A stretch of DNA of 64,000 bases from Apostichopus japonicus (taxonomy: Eukaryota > Echinodermata > Holothuroidea > Aspidochirotida > Stichopodidae), in NCBI RefSeq assembly GCF_037975245.1, contig NC_092576.1, positions 44,023,611-44,087,610 on the forward strand, read 5' to 3'. Of the stretch, positions 5,121 through 56,600 are shown one piece after another. A program made the translations under genes and the position numbers. Numbering within the stretch: position 1 is the first letter of the stretch; every line of letters starts with the position of its first letter. The notes under the pieces were generated by a model. It saw only the letters and a program-made list of their open reading frames with translations. It was not told where the DNA came from and ran no database searches.

Positions 5121-6304
5121 CTATGAGAATAGGAGCCTACGCAGTTCGCTGCTTCTGGCAGCCACACCATCAATGATATTTTTAGTGTCAAGTTTGGCCA
5201 AGATCTTTTTTTTTCCACAGACATCAACATGAACAAGGTGTTCTTGTGTCATCGTACTTCTCAAAAAGTTTTTGAGTCTCTTCAAGGCTGAGAAAGAACG
5301 TTCACATGCCACTTGTGACACAGGTAGTGTTACCAACAGCTTGTGGGCAAGCCCAATGCTCTTGTAAGCAGGCGCGTAGCCAGGAATTTGCCAAGTGGGG
5401 GGCGAAAATGTAGGCAAACTTTCAGAGCCGTAGATACAGCATTGCAAACTATCTAAGCGTAGTGCCACCATGTTGGCGCGAAGCGTATAAGAAAATTTTG
5501 GCTGAAAATGCCTCCCAGATTGCTGGAAATGGCACTTCCCAGGCCTTGTAAGTTGCATCTTAGCATTTTCTCTTTTGAAATTACTAGCGATATCATAAAA
5601 ACATTCAACAAAATTTTAAAAATATGCTCAAGGCTGCCCCCTTCGCCCCCTCCCCCCCCCCCCCTTGGCTACGCGCCTGCTTAAAAGCATCGGTGAAAAG
5701 GTTCAACTTGAGGAGCACCTTGTAGCAGCAGAGAGGACAGTCTTTACATGACTCACTTGATAAGCTCTCTCTGTCCTGTTCAGACTCACCGTCACTGTCA
5801 TCCTGCGATGTATAAGCATCTGCTACTGATTGTTTCAGTGTTGAACACTGGTCTTCAAGGCTTCGCAGTTCTGTTCGTAGTTGTTCCGCAGTGACAGCAT
5901 CATCAAATCTCAGCAAATATCTATGCAGCTCTTCCATAGCTCTGGAACACTTGACCGAAGTGTCTTGGGTGAAGAAGTGTGAGATCAGCATAGAATGTTG
6001 ATGTTGCTGTGGCTGATCTGTCAAATCGTCGCTCAATGCTGCTCACAATAGTGTCTACTATCGGGTTATACACTTCAATGCTATACCTGTTCACTGGGTC
6101 AGAAGTTGATGTAGCCTCATCTGTGGCTCGTGCGCCATCCATGCGTTTCTTCTGCCTTTGCCGTTTTACCGGAAGTGACTCTTCTATAACAAGATCTTCC
6201 ATATCTTCCAGTTGGTCATTAGCCAATTGAACAAACTTTGCATCATGAGTCGATTGGAAGTCATGACGTAGAATCCGCATATTCTTCAGCAATTCGTCCA
6301 CCAT
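5121..6304 (-). pseudogene. hAT transposase remnant (ZMYM1 / TTF-type, C-terminal part), frameshifted and interrupted
   Basis: The readable segments run 6304 to about 5950, then about 5950 to 5690 in another frame, then 5360 to 5121. The first has LLKNMRILRHDFQSTHD and FYADLTLLHPRHF. The second has ELHRYLLRFDDAVTAEQLR. The third has the hAT dimerisation core LPVSQVACERSFSALKRLK and LRSTM. This order matches the ZMYM1-like transposase C-terminal half. The N-terminal zinc finger and much of the catalytic region are absent. One frameshift near 5950 and the insertion 5369-5679 break it, so it is not functional. Deleting the insertion and one target duplication leaves the frame continuous across that site. 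Confidence 0.85.
5369..5679. mobile_element. Complete GCGTAGCCA-type hAT MITE inserted in the transposase remnant
   Basis: 311 bp. The ends CAGGCGCGTAGCCA (5369) and TGGCTACGCGCCTG (5679) are perfectly inverted over 14 bp. Flanks CTTGTAAG (5361-5368) and CTTAAAAG (5680-5687) agree at 6 of 8 positions, as expected for an old 8-bp duplication. The interior shows the family core plus a G run near the left end and a 15-base C run near the right. It interrupts the ZMYM1-like transposase reading frame and is therefore younger than it. Confidence 0.8.
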
Positions 6305-30373: not shown

Positions 30374-30553
30374 GATGGCTGTACGTGGGAGAAACAAATG
30401 TGGCTGTGAACTAGTACTGTACAGCATTGCAGAGATACCCTAACCTATTCGCACTAAAAAATATGATGGCTGTATGTGGGAGAAACGAATGGGGCAGTTA
30501 ACTAGTACTGTACAGCATTGCCGAGATACCCTAACCTATTCGCACTAAAAAAT
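30374..30553 (+). repeat. 91-bp tandem duplication upstream of the proline-rich gene
   Basis: Two copies start GATGGCTGTA at 30374 and 30465 and share GAACTAGTACTGTACAGCAT-like cores and CCTAACCTATTCGCAC. They lie 200-400 bp before the splice acceptor, that is, within the presumed 5' UTR intron. Confidence 0.85.
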
Positions 30554-30730: not shown

Positions 30731-30828
30731 TTTGATCTTTTTGTTTCTGTTTCGTTTTCCCTACAGAGTCATGTGACCACACCAGAAGCTGCATATTCAT
30801 TAGTCTGAGCGAGTTTCAAAGGTTGACC
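30731..30828 (+). promoter_or_regulatory. Intron 3' end (polypyrimidine tract, acceptor CTACAG) and 5' UTR of the proline-rich gene
   Basis: A T-rich pyrimidine tract at 30731-30760 ends in CTACAG at 30761-30766, a strong splice acceptor. The 62 bases from 30767 to the ATG at 30829 would be the remaining 5' UTR of the coding exon. This implies at least one upstream non-coding exon, and therefore a promoter somewhere further left, which I could not locate. Confidence 0.6.
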
Positions 30829-32934
30829 ATGGGGTGCGCCAATTCCCATTCCGAGGACATCCATAAGACGTCACTTTTGGAATCCGATAAATTTGTGACC
30901 TCCCTTCAGGAGGTTCCGGGTTACTTCAATCGAACCATGCAAACCGCAGACTTCCTCCCGCCCAAGTTCCCTGACGCCCCGCCAAAGAAACCGGAGATGT
31001 CCTACACGGGTCCGCCTTCCCACCTACAAAACTCGGTGGACTTTCACCCATACTGGAACCTGATACAGCAGGAGTACGTCCCGTCCGATCCCATCCGGGA
31101 AGACGACGGCGAGATGCCACAGTCTCTCCAGCCAAGGACAGACACCGCCCAGGAGTTACGGGATATTGAAGTGAGAGAAGCCATCACAGATCTGCGGCAG
31201 AGGGTCAGGGAATCCATATCGGAAAAACTAAGAGAAAATGAAGACGACTTTCTGGCAGCACTCTCTGCCCATGGAGTCGCTGAATCTGGCGATAGCAGGC
31301 GTCCAGATTCTCTCGGTAGCCCTCCCCTCCTGGGGGTGGAAAAGCCTCCCCCACCCCCTCTACCTGCAGAGGACTATATGGATGGGCCTGACAACTCACT
31401 AGCTCAAGAGGAGAAGGACACCATTGACTTTTTGGATTCTGTGATTAACGAGAGTATGGCTTGGGACGAGGAGACAGGAGAGGAGGTGGTTAGAGAGGGC
31501 GGTAATTGGTCCTTTGCTCCTCCTGCCCCTCCTCAAGATGAACCAGAGGTCAATCACAAGGAGTATGATTCCAAGAAACCCCTCCCCGGGTTCAATCTAG
31601 ACATTACAAGCGTCAAATCCACGCCGCCCAACTCACCTACTACGTCGTTCAGCAAGAGCATCTATCTACCAGAGGATAAGAACTCGTTCATCTCTAACAA
31701 CGTCCTGGCTCGTCAGACGTCCTCCTCCAAGCAGATCAGTACTGTCGACAGAAAGAAACCATCCACACTGCCGGACGGAAGCAAACATTCAGATCATAAA
31801 ACCAGCAGGACACTGGAATCGCCCGGGAGGAAACTGTCACAGAAGAGGAACCCTCCTCCACCTCCTCAGCGTGCTACTCCATCTCGAGCTTCAGAGCCGC
31901 CTCCGCGGGAAATCTCCGTGTCGTTAATTAATTCATCAAGGTCATCAGAAGGTGCAAAGACAGTACTGTCAAGGACAGTTTCAAATGATGGCAGTGTACC
32001 CCCACCTCCACTGGCATCACCACCTCCACCACCCCCACCACCTTCCCCTCCACTCGCGGTGAAGACAAATATTTCAGAAAGAACTGAACAGGGTGACGTT
32101 TCGGATTTACCTGGGATTCAGAGGTCAAAGATATCTCATGTGGAAGAGGTACCGCCATCCCCTTCTTCCCCTCCGCCACCTCCCCCACCCACACAACCCC
32201 CTCCCCCTCCTCCTCCAGTGACACAGCCCCCTACTCCCCCAATGACACCAGCAGTAAAAACACTCGATCGGATAAGTCTGGCCGGTCAGGAGGACCTTGG
32301 GCCTGTGCCGAAGTCTCCGCCACCAGTAGTCCAGAGAACCAGAACACTCGAAAAGAAAAATTCTGTTAAAAAGGAAGGTAAATCACTTCCACCACCAGCA
32401 CCAAAGCCTAAGCCAAAGCAACCGCCAGGCGTGAAGCGGAAACCCGTCCGGCATTCGATGGTGGACATATCCGCAGAGAATACCATCCTGGAGGACCTCC
32501 CCAGCGACGACAGTGGGATCAAGGAAGAAGTCACGGAGAAGGGCATACACGACATCATCAGGAATCTGAAGTTGTCGGACCCTACGACCACGACCACCGC
32601 CACTCTGGACAGGAAGCCCAAAGCTAAGGTCCCACCTCCTACTGCTGCAAGGAAAGCCAAGCCAGCTAGACCAATTTCCATGCCCCCACAGGCCTGGTCA
32701 CCACCAGTGGTGAAGCCCAAGCCACAGCGACAGAGCAACGGCACTCTACCTAACGGCCACGGTATGTTAGGTAGGACTACCTCCTTCTCCTCTTCCATCA
32801 GCGGAGGAGGGGGAGGAGTCAGGAGACATCTGTCCGATGACAACTCTTCCGAGGACTCCGGGCTGCACATGAAGGACGACTCAGAGCTACTCAGCCAGAT
32901 AAGGCTGCGGCTCGTAGACGCACAAGTCACATGA
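30829..32934 (+). CDS. Proline-rich, predicted N-myristoylated protein of unknown family (single coding exon, 701 aa)
   Basis: The start is ATG 30829 in a near-perfect Kozak context (ACCATGG). The longer reading from 30823 begins with TTG and is not used. Residues 1-6 are MGCANS: Gly2 and Ser6 fit the N-myristoylation rule and Cys3 is a likely palmitoylation site, so the protein probably sits on the inner membrane face. A predicted charged helix lies at about 108-147, an SLAQEEKDTIDFL motif at about 190-202, proline runs at 172-178, 342-346, 390-410 and 447-470 (possible SH3, WW, EVH1 or profilin ligands), Lys-Pro repeats at 520-545 and 590-635, and two DSG motifs at 561-563 and 676-678. The C-terminus is a short helix. 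The whole coding region lies in one exon behind an intron in the 5' UTR. I do not recognise the family; a distant link to SARG/PROSER2 is only suggested by the middle motif. Confidence 0.9.
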   Translation: MGCANSHSEDIHKTSLLESDKFVTSLQEVPGYFNRTMQTADFLPPKFPDAPPKKPEMSYTGPPSHLQNSVDFHPYWNLIQQEYVPSDPIREDDGEMPQSLQPRTDTAQELRDIEVREAITDLRQRVRESISEKLRENEDDFLAALSAHGVAESGDSRRPDSLGSPPLLGVEKPPPPPLPAEDYMDGPDNSLAQEEKDTIDFLDSVINESMAWDEETGEEVVREGGNWSFAPPAPPQDEPEVNHKEYDSKKPLPGFNLDITSVKSTPPNSPTTSFSKSIYLPEDKNSFISNNVLARQTSSSKQISTVDRKKPSTLPDGSKHSDHKTSRTLESPGRKLSQKRNPPPPPQRATPSRASEPPPREISVSLINSSRSSEGAKTVLSRTVSNDGSVPPPPLASPPPPPPPPSPPLAVKTNISERTEQGDVSDLPGIQRSKISHVEEVPPSPSSPPPPPPPTQPPPPPPPVTQPPTPPMTPAVKTLDRISLAGQEDLGPVPKSPPPVVQRTRTLEKKNSVKKEGKSLPPPAPKPKPKQPPGVKRKPVRHSMVDISAENTILEDLPSDDSGIKEEVTEKGIHDIIRNLKLSDPTTTTTATLDRKPKAKVPPPTAARKAKPARPISMPPQAWSPPVVKPKPQRQSNGTLPNGHGMLGRTTSFSSSISGGGGGVRRHLSDDNSSEDSGLHMKDDSELLSQIRLRLVDAQVT

Positions 32935-35900
32935 TCCAGTCACATGACGAATCACATGATCTTTACGACTGCTGCCCCGAGGAAGGAGAGGGTCTCCCCA
33001 CCTCCGAGGAGAGAAGAGGAGAGCTTCTCAGAGCCACATATGTAGGACAAGTCTGTCGGTAAGAGTAAAGAGGCTAAAAATCTTACCCTCAGGGTTTGTA
33101 ACTTTTAACAAGGCAGCGTTTAATTGTCACCCATATTGTGTAAATATTTTGTAAATATTCAAAAAATTGGAGAGAGGCGGATTTATTTGCAAATAGGGTT
33201 TTTTCAAACTAAAATCACGCACAAAATGAGTAAAAGGGGAAGTGAAGCCTTGCCTCTGACCACTGTCTGTAGTGTTGAATACACTCTGTAAATCTATATC
33301 CTAATTCAGGAAGTATTTTATAATGTGCAGTACTTTTCGGGGGAGAGGAAGGAAAGAGGGTCGAAATGAGCGAATATATGGTGCAGCCAATCGAAACTTG
33401 TTTACGCCGGGGAGCATGCTGTTGCCAAAACATATTATTACACTCTGAAGTCAAAGAGGAAGTAGGCTGACCTATGATTCACTTTCTTATTTTTGTTATG
33501 TGAGCAACTAGGGCGTCTGTTTCAGTTAGTTAACTGGCAAGACATGATACTGCACGCAACCTGGGCTTTACTTTAACGAATTGAAACCTGTGGAACAGGA
33601 AAGGGTATAAACATTGATGATATCACAGGTTTATAAATATAGGTTTGTGCTCCACATGCATCATGGGTAATGGAATTAGTCATACTAGTCTGACATAGGA
33701 CTTAAACTGTATTGTGTACCTGTTTCAAGAGGTCTACCTCTCAAGTTTAGAGTCCTTTGGTTATCTTTCGAGACAGGTCTGTGGGGTGGGGTGGGGGTGG
33801 GAACCAAGTTTAAATTGGTTGAGGAAAGGTTGTTTTTGATTGGTACTTTCAGTGCTTACATGGCATTAGTTGTATTACCAGAACGTTTATTCCATAGTTA
33901 TTATTTAATTTCGATAACCCAACGATTAACTTTGCTATTTGATGGGATAAGTTTATAAAGCCGACGCCTCAAGTTTTGATTGGGGGGGCGGAAGTGAGGG
34001 TTGGGGGCTAGGAGAGGGGTGTTAGCATGGTGTCGACGTTGAATACAGCTGGTGCTCATGGTGGTTGATGTTAGTTCCTAATGGTGATTTCGTTATCTTA
34101 CCCGAACCTTGAAGTACCTATCAGTTTTGGTTGCTTTCACACCATGTGTGTATGTGATGTATGGTGATAGGCCCTCAAGTTTTCCTGTGTCCAGTATGTG
34201 TTACAATCATACAGCCTACCACATTGACCTGTGGCACTGCCAAGCAGTGTGTCTTAAGCCTAGCCTACAGAGGTTCTAGCTAGTTACGTCTACTTGAATA
34301 TGGCCTCCCCTACTGACAATGTCTCTATAAGGTTCGAGTCGCTTCGAGTCAAGACAAATGTTTGCACAACGCCACCCTCTTGGGGATAACTAAGATGTTT
34401 TTGATTTTTTGTTTGTCAAGTGTCCACGGTGTTTGAGTGGAATACAGCAGGGGGTGTAACTTTAAACAGCGGGAAAAAGAAACGAAAAGAAAGAATGTTT
34501 TCTGCCTCGCTGTATTACGAGCCGCTCTCCTCTTTATCTCCTTTGTTAATATTAACAGCTTAAACAAGTTTTCACAAATTCTTCAACGGTTTTGTACGGT
34601 CGACTGGTAAAATTGTTTGTTTTATATCATGGCCTCTGGAAGTTCAAGCTCGGTTCATGTTTCATACCATTGCACTTATGTAAACAGTGACAAACAAACC
34701 CATTATTCTGTGGTCTGGTTTCTCACGGTAGAATTGGTAGAGAAAGAAGGGGGGAGGGTGGGGGGGGGGTTTGGAAGAAGAAAAAAAAATCAAAGAAAGG
34801 AGTGATTCAAATCCAAGAAATATCAGTTTAGCCCATAAAAGGAAAACGAAAAAATATTGGTCCAAACTGCTTTACATAACTAGCATATTGATGTGACCAA
34901 TTTGGCATTTCATTAGTCACCCGGTTCTCGGAATGCATGCGACTAATTGCTGGGTGAAGGCTTCTTCGAACTGGTGGAAAGAAAAGAAAAAATCTTGGCT
35001 GTCGATCAAAGGTTTTCCTCGTAGAAATAGATTTTTCCGTAATTTTCAGTCAACGGTGGTTGAGAAAAAGGTCAAATTTTTGAAGCCGTTGTATAAACCT
35101 TGATTCTCAATGTCTACATTCACCTCTTTGACCTTTCTATGACGTCAACAGAAACGTAAACCAAAGGGCGAAAAAAAAACTTATTGTAACACTGATATGT
35201 GGGTTTGTAGAGATAAGGATACAACAGGATGCAACATTGGTTGAAATAACTGTGGTTTTCTGCTTGGATGGCTCAATTCATTCAAGCATATCTGAAAGTG
35301 TATCCTTTTTGCTGACTGATTATAATAATAATAATTTTATAAATTAAATCTGGCCATAATATGAAGGAAATCTGGTGGGTGACAGCACATCATTTTAAAT
35401 TATTTTTTTCTTCCCGTAATTATTCACCAAATATAATATTTTGTTATGTTTAAGTTTAAACGTTGCTCTTGAAAGTTTTTGTTATGTTTAAGTTTAAACG
35501 TTGCTATTCAAAGCATTTTGAAACGTTGCACCTTTAACTTGGCTAGGTGGTTAACAATGTTTTTTGTTTTATAATTTTTCTTTTTTTTTAATATTCATTT
35601 TGTATATATATTATATTGTATACAAGTTACCTTAAACAGTGCACAACATGCATCACATATCTATATGACTAACCAAATACCTTGACATTACCTTACATGT
35701 ACAGCAATATATATACTAATATAACAAATCGTTGGTTAAGTAATCCAAGAGAAAAGATAATACACCAGAAATGAAGAGAAAAAAAATAAGAAAAAAAAAA
35801 CTAGTTGAAAAAATTCCATTAATATTATTTCTAAAAGAAATATTAAAATGAACTAAATTTTTGGCTTCCTAGTTTGTACCATAAAAGATACCCTATTATT

Positions 35901-44640: not shown

Positions 44641-47600
44641 CTAGAGGAAGAAAGGGTAAAATAGGAACAAATAATCAATGGATCAATGTAGAATTATAGA
44701 CATATCATATATTCATATCTACAGATATATGTCCTAATAAAGATATGCATATACATATATAAATATATACATTTTTATACTTTAATTCTGTGAACTCTAA
44801 TGTTTGCCATTTTTTTGTCTTTTTACCGTTTATCATCTTGTATTTGTCTTATATGTACATATACGAGCTTGTAATTTCCCTTTTGGGATGAAATAAAGTT
44901 TTACTTACTTACTTACATACATATATTATATGGGACACAGATAATAGAACCAACTGGATAGGAAAAGCAGATATCACAAGTTCATACTCTCTCTTTCTGC
45001 AGCTACATAATCAAGAAAGTCATTAAATCATCTCAGAAAACCTTTGACCTTATATTCAGTTGGTGATACTGACAACCTTTGACCTTATATTCAATAATAC
45101 ACTGGTGATACTAACATGAAACAGCTTCTTGCGTCTGGCAAGTTGTAAGGATTCGTCTAACTTGAATGCAAACATGTTCTCTGTTTCTGGGTCCAGAAGC
45201 CTGAAATTAGTTTCATCTAAAGACAGAGAGAGGGAGGGAGAAAAAGAAAAGAGAGTTAATAGCAAACTTTTCCCAAAAAATATTGGAACCAGCGGTCTCA
45301 AAATTAAAACTTGTGGTAACCAGATAGTTACTGCAGCCTTAACTCCTGCTTTACCCGGTTTCTTTTGGAACCGTACTCACCCAAGAACCATCTGCTCTTG
45401 TAGCTCTCCTCAATCCACATCGGGGAGATGATGTGGCGGGAGCAGCAGACCCCGCAGAGGAACTTTACGGTGCGGATAACCTTAGTGGTCACCAGATGGG
45501 TGCACTTCTGTATGTCGTGGACCACTCGCCCTCCCAGCTTCTCTAGTTTCTGGAAGAGATTTAGAAGGAAGGATTTGGTTGGTTTACAATTGGAGAAAGA
45601 ATTTATAGATGGGATTAGGGAGGGGATTAGAGAGCGCAATAGAGAGGGGAGAAATGGGTACAAAGGAGTAGAGATAAAAGAGGCAGGATTAGAGAAAGGA
45701 TTAGAGGAAGGATTAGAGAGAGGATTAGCTGGAGGATTAGAGACGGGAGAAATGGGTGCAAGGAGTAGAGAGAGATAGGATTAGAGACAAGAGAAATTAG
45801 AGAAAGGATAAGAGATAGGATTAGAGAGACTAAAGGAAAAAATAGAGTAGAGTAGGAGTAGAGATAATGGAGGCAGGATTAGAAATAGGATTAGAGATAG
45901 GAATAGAAATAGGATTAGAGACAGGAGAAATTAGAGAAAATATTAGAGAAAATATTAGAGATACTAGAGAAAGGATTAAAGACAGGATTAGAGAGACTTA
46001 AGGAAAAGTTAGAGAAAGAATTAGATAGGATAAGAGAAAGGACCAGAGAAAGAAGAAATTAGAGAAGGGATTAGAGATTGGATAAGAGATTGGATTAGAG
46101 AAAGAAGAAATTAGAGAAAGGGTAGCAGATATCATCCTAGAACACTGGGACAACAACGATCAAGATTTTCAGTCCATTTAAATCATCCAGGAAGCTAGAA
46201 CGCGCTCAATGTAACCTTATAAGTTTTGAGACCCACAGAGCTCTATAATTATAGGAGCAAAGTTTCCAAAAAAAAACATGAAATTGATAATTTGTATCGA
46301 GGGCCTAATTTTGACAGGATATTCCACATCACAACTGAACAACTTCCAGGCAGAAGTTATCATTTGTTTTCTTTTAATTAACCATAGAAGTACAACCTTT
46401 AAGTTTCTTTGACCACCAACAGGGGTACTTTATGAAGCCAGACTCACCTTGGACAGGTCCGGTATAAACTGACCGTCGATACCGGTAAACATGACCTTTG
46501 GTATTTTGTGAGGATCCAGGGCCGGGACCGGTGTGTCCCACAACTCATCCTCAAAAGAATGAGACTTTCTGAAAACCAAACAAATGTAGACAGATATGTT
46601 GCAAATTTCATTTCAACAAAAACATCCGTTGGTTAATAACCACCCTCTGCATTTCAGATTCAGCCCACCTCTCCAACCCTCCTCCCTCCCCAATAGATAT
46701 CTTCAAAATGGTCATGTTAGGCAGACACTTTAAGAATAATAACAAACCAAACAACTTCAGTACAATACCAAAACAGTCACAGAGAGAGAGGGGCAGAAAT
46801 TTTATTATTGTTTTTTAATATTTTCACTCTGTTTATTTCTCCGTCAAGGAGGGCGCAAGTCCACTATTGCTTCTAGTAAAACCTTGTTACCCAAAAATAG
46901 AATATAATTTTGACACATTGTGATTGTTGTTTAATATACTTTCGAATTTGACTTAAATGATTTATATATTTATCTTTGGAGCTTATTGTGGGTCCCTGTT
47001 TCCAAACTTCCTGGCTTTTTTGGGGTTTTTTTTGAACGGACAATTTGGTCTTCCCCGCAGTTGTGACAACCGATCAGGATTTACCTTCCACAACTCCAGA
47101 TTTGGTTGCAGTCATGTGTTAACTGTAACAGATACTCAACCACATCAAACTCTTCGAAAAGGTTTTTTTTTTACACCGTCCCAGCCGACAGATGCCCGAA
47201 AGGAATCCTGTAGGTGTGGCTAACCAGAAGTTCAGCTTACATGAATATCACATTCCAAAGTATCTGTAAAGTATGCTTAACCATTAACGACTCAATTAAA
47301 CCCTAATTTCCAAGACTTACTTTGCTCTTTTGGCTGCTCCGGGGCTCATATTCTCCGCCTTCCTTTTACTGCTTAAGTGGGCCATAAAACTCTAAATGAG
47401 ACAAGCAGAAGGAACTTTAAAAATAACGAAGGGATGTTGCAGGAAAATGTTCATTTTCCAAGAAGCAGGTGCAATCCTGAAGCAAGGCTAACAAAATACC
47501 AAAGCATTAGAGATTATCTCTGCAGATCAGCAGTGCTCATTGTTCAAAACCTGTAGAGCACAACAGAATATTTCCTAAGCAACATTCACCCCTCCCCCTG

Positions 47601-50600
47601 GCCACTCAGCATCCAACTTTTAACAAGCTGTGTAAATACAAGTGTCACATAACCAGATATAACATTGACTTTATGTCAATCCAGTTGCTAGCGTTGGTCA
47701 AGGATTGGTTGAACCCCATAGTAACTGTTGCCAGGCTCTCTCATAATTTGTAACTCTGACTTTCAAACATTTAGTCCAGCTGTAAATTAAACGGCATTGT
47801 TGTTCTCTCACAACATCATTATCACACGGCAACACAGCCTCAGAAATAGACCACACAGATCTGGGATCAGAAGGTACATAGAGGGCGCTAACAAGGTACA
47901 TAGAGGGTGCTAACAAGGTACATAGAGGGCACTAACCACTAACAAGGAAATTGAGGGTGCTAACAAGGTACATAGAGGGCGCTAACATGGTACATAGAAA
48001 GCGCTAACAAGGTACATGGAGGGCGCTAACAAGGTACATAGAGGATGCTGGCAAGGTACATAGAGGGCGCTAACAAGGTACATAGAGGGTGCTAACAAGG
48101 TACATAGAGGGCGTTAACAAGGTAAATAAAGTGCACTAACAAGATACATGGAGGGCGTTAACACATTACATAGAGGGCGCTAACACAGTACATATATAGA
48201 GGGCACTAACACCGTACAGACGTAAACTCAACATTGCATCTGTTGAGTTCAGAGAAATGATTCTGGGGGCAGTAGAACCTAAAAAATGTTGAACCTAGAA
48301 ATGAAACCTAGAACATTGGACTTGGTAGTGTAATTAAAAAAATTAATTAATTAATAAGAGACCACTTACCCTTTTCGTGGCTGAGCTTATTTTAAGGGGA
48401 GAAGTCCAGGGAGCTTTGAAAATAACAAAAACAAAATGAAAATGAGAATAGCAGTTGATACCTTTTGTAAAAATGAGGAATTTATCAGGAACAAAAAAAG
48501 GGAAATAGCATATTGTGTTCTTCCGATTCCTCTGAAAATGAGAGACTTTAAGGGTGCTTTTACACTAGATCTGACTTGAGTCGTACTCTGATCCTCCCGC
48601 GATATTCCCCGGATGTTGCTAAAAGAAATCGAATTGGAAATTTGTCATGTGCAGCCGTGGATCGCGTAGTCCGTATACTCCAAAACATTCGTTGTCATGG
48701 TGTAAAGTCTTAGGCATGTGACAATACTACACTATGTATGGCCCACACTCACTCAGTCTATGCAGGAATTAGCACATGTATGTATGCATGATACAGGACT
48801 GGAATTTCATGCAAGAATACATGTGATGTAATGAGGTCACTGGATATCTTGGGTCACTGTTGATGCCGGAGTGTTTACATTGCAAAATTGATCTTGATGT
48901 CCGGATCAGATCCTGATCTCTGGCAGCAACAAAATAGTAGGATCAGATCCGGATCTGAACTGCATTTACACTACAGATCTATAGTAAAAGCACCCTTATG
49001 TATGCCAACTTAGTGAGATGGTTTATAGGGGAAGTTAAATTGGGTATAGTAGAGGTATGACATGGGTCTCATGAAGGTACAGCAGGGGGTGTTTTACTAA
49101 CCTGTAATCTTAGTGGCATTGGTGCACTATACTCAGTTTCTACTACATGGTTATTCAAATCGCACAGGAGGAGGCAAGGAGGGGGTAGGGTGGGTACAGC
49201 AGAGGTGTTCATTCATCTATGGTCACGGTGTACAGCACCAGTACAGCACCGGTACTTTACAGACTCATCTGTGCCATTGGTCAAAACTTAGATTCCGGCC
49301 TAATACTCCTATCTTATGGTTCTGAACAGGATGCATCCAGGGGTGTTTCATTTACTTATAAGTGGTACCGTTAAATATATATATATATATGTGTAATATA
49401 TTCAATTTTGATAAAGCATTGGCATGACATAATTTATTTTAAGGGTACAGAGGGAGAGGGGGTGGAAGTGGGGGGGGGTACTCACCCATCAGTGGTAGTG
49501 GTATATCATACTCAATCTTAAATGGATCCTCGCCCTCATACAGCTGGTATCGGTCCTCCAATAGATTCTGAAAGGCTCCAAACTTTCCCAGGATTATGTC
49601 ACTCAGCCAACGTACGTTGACCGTGGGCATGCGCCACTCTTGCGCTTTCTCGTACTTGAACCCTTCCGGCCTGCGGCAGATGAGCAAGGTGTTGCCACGG
49701 CTCAGGTAGCCGGTGTACGTGGCGCCGATCATCTCTATCATGGTCTTGACGTCGTTTCTCTCTGTGCCTTCGAAGCCGGTCACCGCGATGACCTGATGAC
49801 AGAGAATAGATGAATAAGCTGAACCACATCATGGAAAAATCCAATTAAAACTCAAATTCAAAATAACTGAACGAGTGCTTTGATGAGCTACCTAGCGCAT
49901 TTGTGTTGTACGAGGATGTACTCATAATCTCTCTTGTACTATGAGGTATTTATGCGACAAGTCGTCTGTCTGCATATATTTAAATTCTCTGATTCAGCCA
50001 CGTTTGGGTGACATGATCGACTGAAGCTGAAACTTACATATTCCTTGCACATCGGTATGTTCAGGGGAAAGCATGGCGGGGGGAAGTGTAGCGCCCTCCA
50101 TGGCGGTTTCATCAATTTGCAGGCCAGGCAGTCATTAAGCCAACTAGCTGTGATGCATCTTTTGCCATCCTTCTTGGCCTGGGAAGGAGAAAAGAAAAAA
50201 AAAACAGACTTAGACTTATCCTGGGACCAAAACTTGTCTCTGGAAAAGTCGATGATGTAAATTTCAATACATTGTTTTACTCAAACATGCTAGGCTACCA
50301 AGTCACTGAATCCAATATAGACTAGCTCTGTTAGTTTGGTAACCTTAGGCTCCAATCTCCTATATTGTGTATGTTAGGCTAGATATGTGGGCAAAAGCAA
50401 AAACTATGCATCAGAAAATCATGCACTGTCACTCTCACAACTACAAAAAATCTCCTTTTAATCCGAAATTTAAGACTTTCAGTTGCTCAAATCAAGAAGA
50501 TAGAAGTTGTTGTAATTGCATGATTTGTTAGCCTTAGGTCTCAAGTTTATATATTGGGCATATGTTAGGCTAGATGTATTTGTTAACCTTAGCTCTCAAT

Positions 50601-53600
50601 TTTACATATTGAGTACATGTTAGGCTAAACATACTTGTTAATCTTAGGGCTGAACATCACACACTTGAGTACATGTTATGCCAGACATGTGAGCAAGATG
50701 CACTGTTACTAACCAACTGAAAGATCTCGGTTCTCTGCGTATCGCAAAGGATGTGCGTGATTCTGTCCGAGTAGCAGTCATCGACCATTCCGCCATGTTG
50801 CTGTATAACCTGCACCATAAACAGATGGACCAGAAGATATATTTCAAAGATGCAGAAATAATTTACCAAAACAGACATAATCTTGTCCTTGTCTTACCAT
50901 GGTCTGACATACCTGCTTGACATATAGTTCACATAAAGGTGTTGATGAAATAAACAAATTAGCTACAACACACTTACAGATATGAATATTATCACATTTC
51001 AAGTTTAACCTAACAACGAAATTATTCAAAGTCGTCCAATACTAATTCAAAATTAAACCGTCTTGACAAACATCTACTGCTTTGACATCACAGACCACCC
51101 ACTGTGTTCTACTTGCCAGAGTATGTAAGGGTCTATATGGTATAAGTTGTTTACATTCAAACAACCATATCTAGAACTAGGGACAAGGTACTGTTATGAA
51201 CTCCAACTATTACACTGTAGAATAATTTTCTCTTCAAATGTAATTGTCACCAGAATATCTCTTAAGGTTAAAGGTCAAGCAAACAAAGAGTGGACATCCT
51301 TGGTTAACACACTGACCTTTGTCCAGATATCAATAAAGTCCCGGTTCACTAAATGTAGATATTCAATGATGAGAAAGATACAACCTAACAGGCACTGGTC
51401 TGGTTTCACTGAAAAGAAATTAAAGGAAAAAATAACATAGAGATTAAAACATGAATAAACAGGTCTGCGGATAACTGGTCTCTAGGCCAAATGTTATTAT
51501 GTTTTGCGATCATACAGTGGAAACATAAATTTCATGTGGTCAGAAATAACGAAGGTAATCGGACAGAGTTGTCAATATCAGCAAGGGTTCCTTCCAGACC
51601 GTGACAGACTTATGCTTACAAGACTTGCAGGTCTGATACAGTCTAACATGACACGGGACGTCATGTTGTCAATAAATTTCCAACAGACCGCGACAGAGTG
51701 GAGCATACACAGAAAAAATAACAGAAAAACTCACAGTTTGTGGACGGGTCGTGACCATAATACTGGATGGTCGGTATGCTAGGGATCACGCCAAAGTGAG
51801 GACCGCTGCTCTTGCCCCTCTGCGGCGTCTTTCCAGCGATGGCGTTCAGCACCTGCGAGATGTGGCGCTTGCCACCTGCCCCCGACAGATTCGGGATGAA
51901 GTCTGAGTTATTGGTGATGTTTCTCAGCATGGACCGAGATGACGAGTTGCTGCCTCCTTTCTCGGACCCTCCTCCCTCGTTGACGCTGCTGATGTCGGAC
52001 CTCGGCGTGGAGTGACCCGAGTCACGACCTCTCTTCTTCTCCTTCCTCTTTTCCTTCTCCTTGTTCTTCTTGTGTTTCTTCTTTTTCTTCTTCTTTTTGT
52101 GCTTCTTGTCCTTCTTCTTGGACGAGGAGTCGCCATCCTTGGGCGTCGTCGACGACGAGGAGTGCGCCCTCGGGGGTGTCGAGACATGCGAGGCTGGGGG
52201 AGTGGCGGCAGGGATGGCGACCTCCTCCGGCAGTGGCAGGTCGGGCATGGGAGTGATATCTTCGGCCCAGGGAACTTTCACTTTGTACTGGACTTTAGGG
52301 GTTTGCTTTTTCACCTAGGGAAACAGCAGACATGAAAAAAAAAAAAAAAAATAAGCCATAATTTTTCAAGCAACATCAACGATAATAATAGCTGACATTA
52401 TTAAAACTTTAATATTAATAATTTGAAAGTTTCGAACCACTATCATGGGTTCAAGCATAACAGTTATTGTGTGGACAGAAGGAGTTGCATTTGGAGCTAT
52501 GAAAACTAGAATCTAGGAGCTCAAGATATGAAACTCGCGCTCACGTAAGAAAGGTTGGTTTTTCATCCGGGAGAGATCCACGGTTTTCTTATATGAAATG
52601 GTCTTTCAAGTGGTTTAAATGAAAAACCAAACCGAGCCAGAGCTGTACAATGGATATATCCATACGTCAGGTGTAAAGTTATAATCCATTCGCACATGCA
52701 TAACTGGCTGCTTGACATCTTCCAGGCTGTTATATAACTTTACCAACTCAGACAGTATTATAAAGTAAACACATGCAACAACTCCCCTCCTTTCCCCCTC
52801 CCTGCCTGAGCCCCTCTTGGCAAGCTATTTACCCTAACCCCTTTAACTATTAAAATATAAAAAAATAAAAAACTACAAAGCTTTTCTGAACAAAGAAAAT
52901 GTTTGAAGAGGTGTATTGAATATTCATAGGCTTCTATTGCAAGCATCTTAGCAATGAATATGCATAAAGGTTGACCTCTGACCTCTTCTATGTCAGCATC
53001 TTTCTCTTCCTCCTTGGCAGCCTGTAGTTCCCTCTGCCTCTCCTGTTCTCTCTCGTCCAGGTCCTCCTGGGTTAAGAGGTACCTGGGGTGGTACCGACCC
53101 TCCTCCAGCCACCGGTTGCTCTGGAAGCAGTCGCGCACCCAGTCGGGGCTTACCACCTTCACCCTGTTCACCTTGTTGTCGTGGTAGAGGGCGCACTTGT
53201 ACTTAGCCTACAGAACCAAAGGGACGTGATTTGAATGACAGGATGAAAAACACACAAAGAATTCACCACAAAGTAGTGACTCTTGTGCCCATTTATAAGG
53301 AAAGTCCCCAAAATGGCAAATTCTAATAAATTAAATCACTTAATTACAATAGCCAATTATATAACAGCTGCACTTTCATATTGCACAACAACAATTTTAA
53401 CCAAACTCTCTGATTATTATCCCTAAGGAAACGGTTGCATTTGATCAAATAAAGACATCCTATTGTCTTTTGAGGGTTGGTTTGCGATTAAAAAACGAAC
53501 AATCTGATTCCCTTCTCAACATTTTATAGGGTGACATACAAAAAAACACAACAAAAAAGAAAACTTTACAATTTTTCTTCATTATTTAAAAAAAAACAAC

Positions 53601-56600
53601 CCCCCCCCAAAAAAAACAAATTAATTGCATCGTTACTGGAGTTGTGTATCGGGTAACGTCAAAAATTTAATCAACATCAACTCTGAAATTAAGACATTGA
53701 CCTTCATCCTTTTTAATCTTACCTAGAGGTAGGTATACCAACGATGAGAGAACAAGGCTTTGTTCTACAAGTTGAGATCTAAGAGTAATTAATGCTGTTT
53801 ACGTGTTCCGTATGACAGCAAATGCCAATTTACACTGTTGTGAATGCTATAAATGGAATGGAGCCAACAGCCATGTGGAACCCAGACATTTCCCCCAAAA
53901 AATTCTTAGGACAAATTTCTTGCACTCCTTCCGTTTCCCTCAGAAAAAAAAAGGTTGCAAAAAATAAGGTTTTTGGAATCAGCCCCACTGTCACTATTTC
54001 AGGGAATGTGAATTCAACTCACTCCATTTGGTCTCCCTGCGACGAGATGAGTGCATTTACTGGTGAAGTGGGAGACGCACCTTCCACCCCTGAAAGTTAT
54101 CATGGCCCACAATGCATTGCGGTCCTTGGCAGATACCTTGAATGAGAAAGAAAAAAAAGACTGTAGTTCATACCTGCTGAGAACCAAAGGACCAGGAATT
54201 TAAAATGGAGCTGAATTCAACTTCTAAAATCTTATACTTTGAAGGACAGATTGGAAGGTAAGTGATGTTCATAACGACGACTTTAAGTGGCATAAGGTTC
54301 TGGTCAGGTCTGTCTCTTTTTCTGAGCATTATTCAAGTTGGTGTCATGCAGATATATTGTTTCCCGTTCACTGAAGAAGACTTGGGTAATGACTTATGGA
54401 CTATTCCGTCGCAGTTTCCTTTGCTGAATGGGTGAATTGATCGGGCAGTGTTTTGTACATGTATTGTAAACCATACTATTTTATAACCTGGGGAAAACAC
54501 CTCAGTGTCTACGAAAACTTACTTAGCCCCTGGACAACTTTGATGAATATTCAAAAGAAGATCACAGTCATGCATGATGCATGCAACTACAGTGATCACA
54601 TTCACATCTGTGTCGGGGTGAATTTTATTAGGTCTTGGTAACATAATATATGGGTAGAAAATGTTTGGAGGTAAATGCATTTTTTTTGTTCTTGAATACT
54701 CAATTTATTTGGAAATAACCTTATAGTTATGAGTTACAACTGTGATAATTAGTGGGACTTACAATGTCTTAAAATGAAAGACGACCATTAACTGCATATT
54801 CATAAGGGGGTGGGGTCACTCACCTGTGTACAACATGCGATGACATTAGTGAAGAGAGCTTCGGTGGGCGTGAATGGCTTGCATGGAAGCAACCTCCCAC
54901 ACTTCAAGGACATTTCGATCCATTTCGGCTTGAGAGGGTGAACATAGACAAATTTTGGATTTATTGAAACAATATGAAAGAAATAATATAGCAAGATTAA
55001 CCTTTTGTTCCTTCAGTCAGATGGGACAATTTGCTTCAGCTAATACCACTATATACTGTCCTCTCATATCATGCTTCAAAGCACTGGTACTCACAGTTCA
55101 AACAGTTCCAAACCTTTCTCTGATTCTCATGCCAAAACCACTCCATACTGTAATTTCATATCATGCTTCAAAGCACTGGTACTCACAGCAGAAACAGTTC
55201 CTAACCTTGATTCGATAGAAACCAAATTCAACACAAGATGGAGAACTGTGCATTTGTCTGTTTGTACCAACTTGAAGATAGTATACAATACAACAATGAA
55301 TTCAACTTGGTCATATGGGAATTTGACACTGTGACAGATATAAATTATAAGTGTGTTTCCCTCTACATAACAGTATATACCAATACCCACTATACATGAC
55401 ACCTTCTGTTGCACACTAAGCTAATAGTGTTCGGTGGAGGTCAGTACATAACATATAAGCATGGAGTAATTCATCCAGAATCGCACCTCAATACTATAGT
55501 GCAAAGACAAGTGTAACGATGTTCAGCAGTTATTCTTCTGACACCGGTACCATGAAATGAATGCTCAGAGCCATCAATGTTGCCATACAAAATTTGAGTA
55601 ATAATATTAGGCATTTAGCTACGCTATTCCTGGTAAAACATATCACAGCGCTTACAAGTTATATTACCCTGGGTCAATGATAACCTGTCCCAGAGACAAT
55701 CCCTCCAGGCGGCAGCAGTTACATACTGTGCCCAATGACAAGTTACCTCACAGATACCCATTTAACCCCTGGGAGGAGAGAGGCAATTGAGATGAAGCAT
55801 CTTGCCCAAGGACACAATGTAATGAACTAGGCAGGAATCGAACCAGCAATCCTTGAGATCATGAGTCCGACGCCTTAGCCAATTGGCCACCACGCCCTCA
55901 AGTAGAGTATATACTAAATTAATTCCCTACATTATGCAACTATAATAGCGTCTTTCTTCTGAAGAATTTTTGGATGCAACTTTCTCTCATGTCGAATGAA
56001 TTAAAGGATGCATTTTTGGCCGAGTGGAGGCGATACACTTTTGAGATACAAACATGTCCGACTCTGACAAAACTTTAAATAAGATATGAAATCCTCGCCA
56101 CATCGATACTGAAGGAAAAAATTGACTCACAGAAACCACTGGTAGTTCAAATATGTCCTGAGCCTCGCTGATCTCTGTGTGGTCCGTCTCCTCCGTGATC
56201 ACGTGGGTCACCTGATCGATGAGATAATTCTCCTCATGGGCTCCGCCTCTCTCCAGCATCTCCACTGCCTGTTGAATGAAGGTAAATCAAAATCAGAATG
56301 CAAAAATGCATTGGGTTCGAGACAGAGACGTGGCCCCTATACTCAAATTCCACATAATCATTGTGCTTTTCAGTATAGTTTCTATCCTAGGACTAGGACT
56401 ATAAAAGCCTGGAATATGTAATCCTTGCGATTTAGAGCAAATACTTAAGCTAAGTTAGACCCCCCTATCCATCCTACTTTTGGCCTAACTGGCCAATTTG
56501 CTTGAGTCCTTTTTGATTGAATGCTTGGAACCTTCACCGACATGAAACTGTTTAATTCACTGCAAGGATAGTCAAATTTGACTGATTCGCTGAGATTTAC

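Follow-up and report, generated by a model that had tools for sequence, protein, structure and literature searches.

A proline-rich protein of Apostichopus japonicus with a predicted dual-acylation signal at its N-terminus

Reading frame and start codon

We analysed a stretch of 64,000 nucleotides of Apostichopus japonicus DNA, hereafter referred to as the window (assembly GCF_037975245.1, contig NC_092576.1, positions 44,023,611 to 44,087,610 of the forward strand). An intact open reading frame of 701 codons plus stop lies on the plus strand of the window at positions 30829-32934, from an ATG at 30829 to a TGA that ends at 32934, exactly at the coordinates and in the frame given in an earlier sequence-only reading. 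The encoded protein of 701 residues starts with MGCANSHSED and ends with RLRLVDAQVT. The open frame as a whole covers 30736-32934 and comprises 732 codons, whereas the longest forward open frame obtained in 300 mononucleotide shuffles of the same segment had 266 codons. The coding sequence also exhibited a period-3 power of 11.1, whereas 81 other 2,103-base stretches of the window had a median of 0.72 and did not exceed 3.93. By these sequence criteria, the gene is real. The proposal, made in the same earlier reading, that all of the coding sequence would reside in one exon fits the sequence. Downstream of the stop codon, a scan of the window sequence as far as position 35343 found neither AATAAA nor ATTAAA. 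A 13-base unit, AGTCACATGATCC, is repeated in about three copies across the stop codon (32925-32961), and its core, TCACATGA, recurs in reverse complement as TCATGTGA at position 30769 in the leader described below.

The coding exon is preceded by a putative splice acceptor with a pyrimidine-rich tract, CCCTACAG (30738-30766, plus strand). Pyrimidines account for 17 of the 20 bases upstream of the AG that ends at 30766; at least 16 are found at 55 of the 1,939 YAG sites on the plus strand of the window. Between this acceptor and the start codon, the exon would have a 5′ leader of 62 bases (30767-30828, plus strand), in which the sole upstream ATG, at 30771, is directly followed by TGA (ATGTGA). 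The main ATG has an optimal context, GACCATGG, with A at −3 and G at +4. Because the frame is open all the way from the acceptor to the ATG at 30829, it would also suit a coding exon further upstream, which would leave the MGC sequence buried; in that case, MGC would be an internal, chance sequence and the protein, starting in the upstream exon, would be soluble. However, the 20 intervening codons include no in-frame ATG, and their translation is out of character, having two cysteines as against only one, at position 3, in the 701-residue protein, which favours the ATG at 30829 as the start. With the optimal context also speaking against it, an upstream start seems to us very unlikely; the start context and the composition favour the ATG at 30829 as the one used in the cell. 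Shortly before the coding exon, in presumed intron sequence, a 91-base unit occurs in tandem (2.0 copies, 93% match; 30374-30553).

Acylation signal, composition and predicted structure

The protein carries at its predicted start the MGCxxS/T sequence of dually acylated membrane proteins, in the form MGCANS (30829-30846, plus strand), with G2 as the predicted site of N-myristoylation and C3 as that of palmitoylation. The canonical MGCxxS signal noticed in the earlier reading is present, acylation itself being predicted. When 123 ATGs opening at least 60 codons were compared on both strands of the window, with nested ones included, the start of this reading frame was the only one that encoded MGCxx[S/T]. 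The lone cysteine of the protein, C3, coincides with the presumed palmitoylation site. Residues 1-60 carry a net charge of −2; this slight acidity makes a myristate-plus-polybasic switch unlikely, so that palmitate would be needed for anchoring. A profile search of the A. japonicus genome found three exon matches to NMT. The MGCxxS literature included, among the matches listed, plant CBL/CIPK proteins and ARA6.

The composition of the protein is dominated by proline (16.1%) and serine (11.8%), with 0.1% cysteine and 1.0% tyrosine. It contains five polyproline runs of at least five residues, all encoded on the plus strand: residues 173-177 (31345-31359), residues 342-346 (31852-31866), residues 398-405 (32020-32043) and two seven-proline runs, residues 448-454 and 457-463 (together 32170-32217). 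Overlapping PPPPP occurs 12 times, as compared with a mean of 0.07 in shuffled sequences, and none of 1000 shuffles reached 12. Motifs for particular ligands occur at the following frequencies: the four class I and three class II SH3 motifs (shuffle means 2.27 and 2.21) were equalled in 198 and 368 of 1000 shuffles, the single broad EVH1-like motif (mean 0.73) in 521 and the single narrow FPxxP EVH1-like motif (mean 0.09) in 89, and PPxY is absent from the 701 residues. Thus, the description of the proline runs as being of SH3/WW/EVH1 type stands for the polyproline, which is far in excess of composition, but not for the specific motifs, whose counts lie within composition, and the list of ligand classes should be read as ‘polyproline’ only. 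[S/T]P dipeptides were on the low side (13 as against 20.8 expected). A pattern scan of the 701 residues for WH2-like, LKKT, RVxF and K[KR]x[KR] NLS-like sequences found none.

Charge is distributed in blocks along the protein, with successive net values of −28 (residues 1-300), +9 (301-420), −2, +12 (501-545), −7, +10 (591-640), 0 and −2. Two basic blocks, rich in lysine and proline, are encoded at 32329-32463 (residues 501-545) and 32599-32748 (residues 591-640) on the plus strand. Basic Lys-Pro repeats had been noted before; the KP dipeptide itself remains within composition (11 occurrences, shuffle mean 7.60; 119 of 1000 shuffles reach 11).

We modelled the structure with single-sequence AlphaFold2, which gave mostly low confidence. 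In the full-length model, the mean pLDDT was 44.7 and 532 of the 701 residues fell below 50; most of the protein is predicted to be disordered, with four helices (all encoded on the plus strand). The charged helix of the earlier reading was recovered by prediction at residues 105-147 (31141-31269), with block pLDDT values of 53-85, and a separate model of residues 95-239 placed it at residues 105-149, with values of 93-96 over residues 115-144. Both models predicted an acidic helix, DNSLAQEEKDTIDFLDSVINES, at residues 188-209 (31390-31455); it covers the SLAQEEKDTIDFL stretch and had a best block pLDDT of 86 in the model of residues 95-239. A short helix was predicted with low confidence at residues 570-579 (32536-32565), after a DSG at 561, and a C-terminal helix at residues 684-700 (32878-32928), after a DSG at 676. 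The last of these corresponds to the C-terminal helix proposed earlier and is weakly predicted, with block pLDDT values of only 49-53. Two of the predicted helices are mildly amphipathic: the hydrophobic moment of 188-209 (0.47) was reached in 40 of 1000 shuffles, and that of 570-579, tested as residues 568-581, in 32. For 105-147 and 684-700, the moment was reached in 115 and 697 of the 1000 shuffles, respectively, and is thus no higher than chance would give. A coiled coil in 105-147 was unconvincing, the best heptad register having 46% hydrophobic residues at the a and d positions. An internal repeat of DSG plus helix (545-600 against 656-701) scored 29, which 280 of 5000 shuffles reached, and was not significant.

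Relatives and possible function

The earlier reading had been unable to match the protein to any named family, and our profile and fold searches agree: nothing usable came from Pfam, from PDB sequences or, for residues 95-239, from PDB folds. The whole protein matched no Pfam family, with no WH2, EVH1, FH2 or other domain detected; when it was divided into ten pieces, eight had no match and none exceeded the cut-off, the two matches below it, to adenovirus L4-33K (E 7.9) and CsgG (E 0.18), being implausible. The sole match among PDB sequences up to E 1 was compositional, in proline and lysine (E 0.91), and the model of residues 95-239 matched no PDB fold up to E 10. In the A. japonicus genome (671,581,487 bases, 35 contigs), the whole protein gave 11 matches, namely itself and ten weak ones, the best of which had an E value of 0.08 and lay within residues 337-526. 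The N-terminal 169 residues and the C-terminal 165 residues each gave the self match and one weak match (E 1.87 and 0.465, respectively), residues 170-536 being covered in the whole-protein query. At the DNA level, 30767-33060 matched itself and one 56-base segment in a proline-coding stretch (E 9.3e-6, 82% identity). As far as these searches reach, the gene is apparently single-copy, with no paralogue found. A search for literature on Apostichopus that combined proline-rich, palmitoyl and cytoskeleton found nothing.

The layout of the protein, with MGCANS at the start, C3 as its sole cysteine, abundant polyproline and predicted disorder with a few helices, is best read as that of a membrane-tethered adaptor, as had been suggested, although the specific SH3/WW/EVH1 motifs of that suggestion are not supported beyond composition. 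We favour, with moderate confidence, a dually acylated, disordered membrane scaffold that would bring profilin, as well as EVH1 and SH3 proteins, to cortical actin. What the sequence itself displays is the open frame, the MGCxxS motif, a single cysteine, a surplus of polyproline, alternating blocks of charge and helices in the predicted structure; binding and location are inferred. As the motif suggests, the initiator methionine would be removed, NMT would myristoylate G2 and a DHHC enzyme would palmitoylate C3, and the acylated N-terminus would be anchored in a membrane, either that of the cell surface or that of the cilium. Profilin-actin, together with EVH1 or SH3 actin regulators, would then be drawn in by the five long runs of proline. 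The helices 105-147 and 188-209 may serve for docking or self-association, and electrostatic self-contact or contact with lipid could come from the acidic and basic blocks. The net effect would be an actin assembly localised at the membrane. In line with this reading, a profile search of the A. japonicus genome found eight exon matches to WH1 (EVH1), besides those to NMT. WIP, Ena/VASP ligands and formin FH1 regions have polyproline runs to which profilin or EVH1 or SH3 domains can bind; our protein resembles these actin scaffolds in its long polyproline runs but differs from them in that no Pfam domain was detected in it. It can also be argued against a scaffold that polyproline may arise by composition drift in a disordered protein. 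Although unnamed, the protein plausibly belongs to a common kind, and, if our reading is right, echinoderm cells have in it a further lipid-anchored scaffold for actin or signalling.

An acylated scaffold could instead serve in signalling, as an SH3-kinase adaptor or under the control of 14-3-3 or a degron, rather than in actin assembly. The two DSG sequences, each of which precedes a predicted helix, are mildly enriched (shuffle mean 0.26; 28 of 1000 shuffles reach two), but both lack the serine at +4 that the beta-TrCP motif has after its DSG. Likewise, the ten R..[S/T] sites and the one R..S.P site that might be cited for such a role are not enriched over shuffles (163 and 524 of 1000, respectively), and tyrosine is scarce. 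We consider a signalling role unlikely. Another explanation is descent: the protein might be a distant echinoderm orthologue of PCARE/C2orf71 or of SARG/PROSER2 that has diverged beyond profile detection. SARG, whose family includes PROSER2, is not known to have an MGC start; its characteristic segment is EEKxxLxFLExTI, and its composition is rich in proline and serine. The present protein, also rich in proline and serine, has a comparable LxxEEKxxxxFLxxxI segment that is predicted to be helical, LAQEEKDTIDFLDSVINES resembling the SARG motif LSTEEKECLLFLEETIGS. Their alignment score of 35 was reached by 156 and 38 of 2000 shuffles (two kinds of shuffling) of the whole protein and by 46 and 24 of 2000 when residues 183-225 were used, so that the similarity is marginal. 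The start of PCARE has MGC--SHS in common with our N-terminus and aligned with a score of 37. None of 2000 shuffles of either kind reached it with residues 1-34, where MGC and SHS drive the score, but 36 and 45 of 2000 did so with the whole protein, again a marginal outcome. Moreover, since acylation dictates MGC, sharing it says little about descent.

The family models also speak against descent, as hmmscan matched neither PF15449 (PCARE) nor PF15385 (SARG) to the whole protein or its pieces up to E 10. As positive controls, a 33-residue human PCARE N-terminus and a 38-residue human SARG fragment matched these models at 9.7e-18 and 7.1e-21, respectively; the controls indicate that the models recognise members, which does not imply that they recognise far relatives. 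The two models found nothing in the A. japonicus genome or in 14 control genomes, those named being prokaryotic, a result that is uninformative on absence. By its sequence, the protein fits neither model and is placed in neither family.

According to a review (PMC10341768), PCARE is a two-exon gene in which a single exon holds 95% of the coding sequence, and its product of 1289 residues is partly proline-rich, lipid-modified at G2 and C3, and conserved at M1, G2, C3, P5 and S6. It is described there as having an antiparallel helical domain of 218 residues, a WH2-like motif that binds actin and three motifs for EVH1 binding, and as the proposed driver of actin-based membrane expansion via WASF3 (PMC10341768). 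Compared with this description, our protein shares the MGCxxS start, nearly one-exon coding, as predicted here, and a proline-rich part, features that could speak for descent, as well as a helical segment. However, it is 701 residues long rather than 1289; it keeps M, G, C and S but has N5 in place of the conserved P5; its predicted helices, of about 43 and 22 residues, do not amount to the 218-residue domain; and it has a single EVH1-like site, as expected by chance, rather than three, and no WH2-like motif. Taken together, these comparisons lead us to regard descent from the PCARE or SARG line as quite improbable. By analogy, PCARE nevertheless comes closest, among known proteins, to the mode of action that we propose for the membrane scaffold. 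That the protein might be an invertebrate-deuterostome counterpart or independent equivalent of PCARE, driving actin-dependent membrane or ciliary outgrowth in echinoderms, strikes us as a very long shot, but a possible PCARE-like role outside vertebrates is the main interest of the locus. If it were true, the strategy used by PCARE would be older than vertebrate photoreceptors or exist outside them, and a real tie to PCARE would bear on the origin of that photoreceptor disease gene.

Other features of the window and the genome

On the minus strand of the window, a multi-exon BRCT gene extends over 45328-54199. Three of eight exon-like open reading frames tested there matched BRCT families, namely PTCB-BRCT (5.8e-22 and 1.6e-7) and RTT107_BRCT_5 (5e-14), and the gene is probably a PAXIP1/PTIP orthologue. 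A remnant of a hAT transposase dimerisation region lies at 5121-5615 on the minus strand (PF05699, 3.9e-6). At 55823-55896, also on the minus strand, an Rfam tRNA match of 33.2 bits (cut-off 29) received no ARAGORN call and is perhaps a tRNA-derived repeat.

Elsewhere in the assembly, contig C35 carries a full-length COX1, which translates normally under mitochondrial table 9 (AAA as Asn, AGA/AGG as Ser), a code that points to echinoderms. Five further COX1-like pieces are found on contig C29 (14745-31219); these could be from a duplicated or misassembled mitochondrial contig, or from a nuclear copy.
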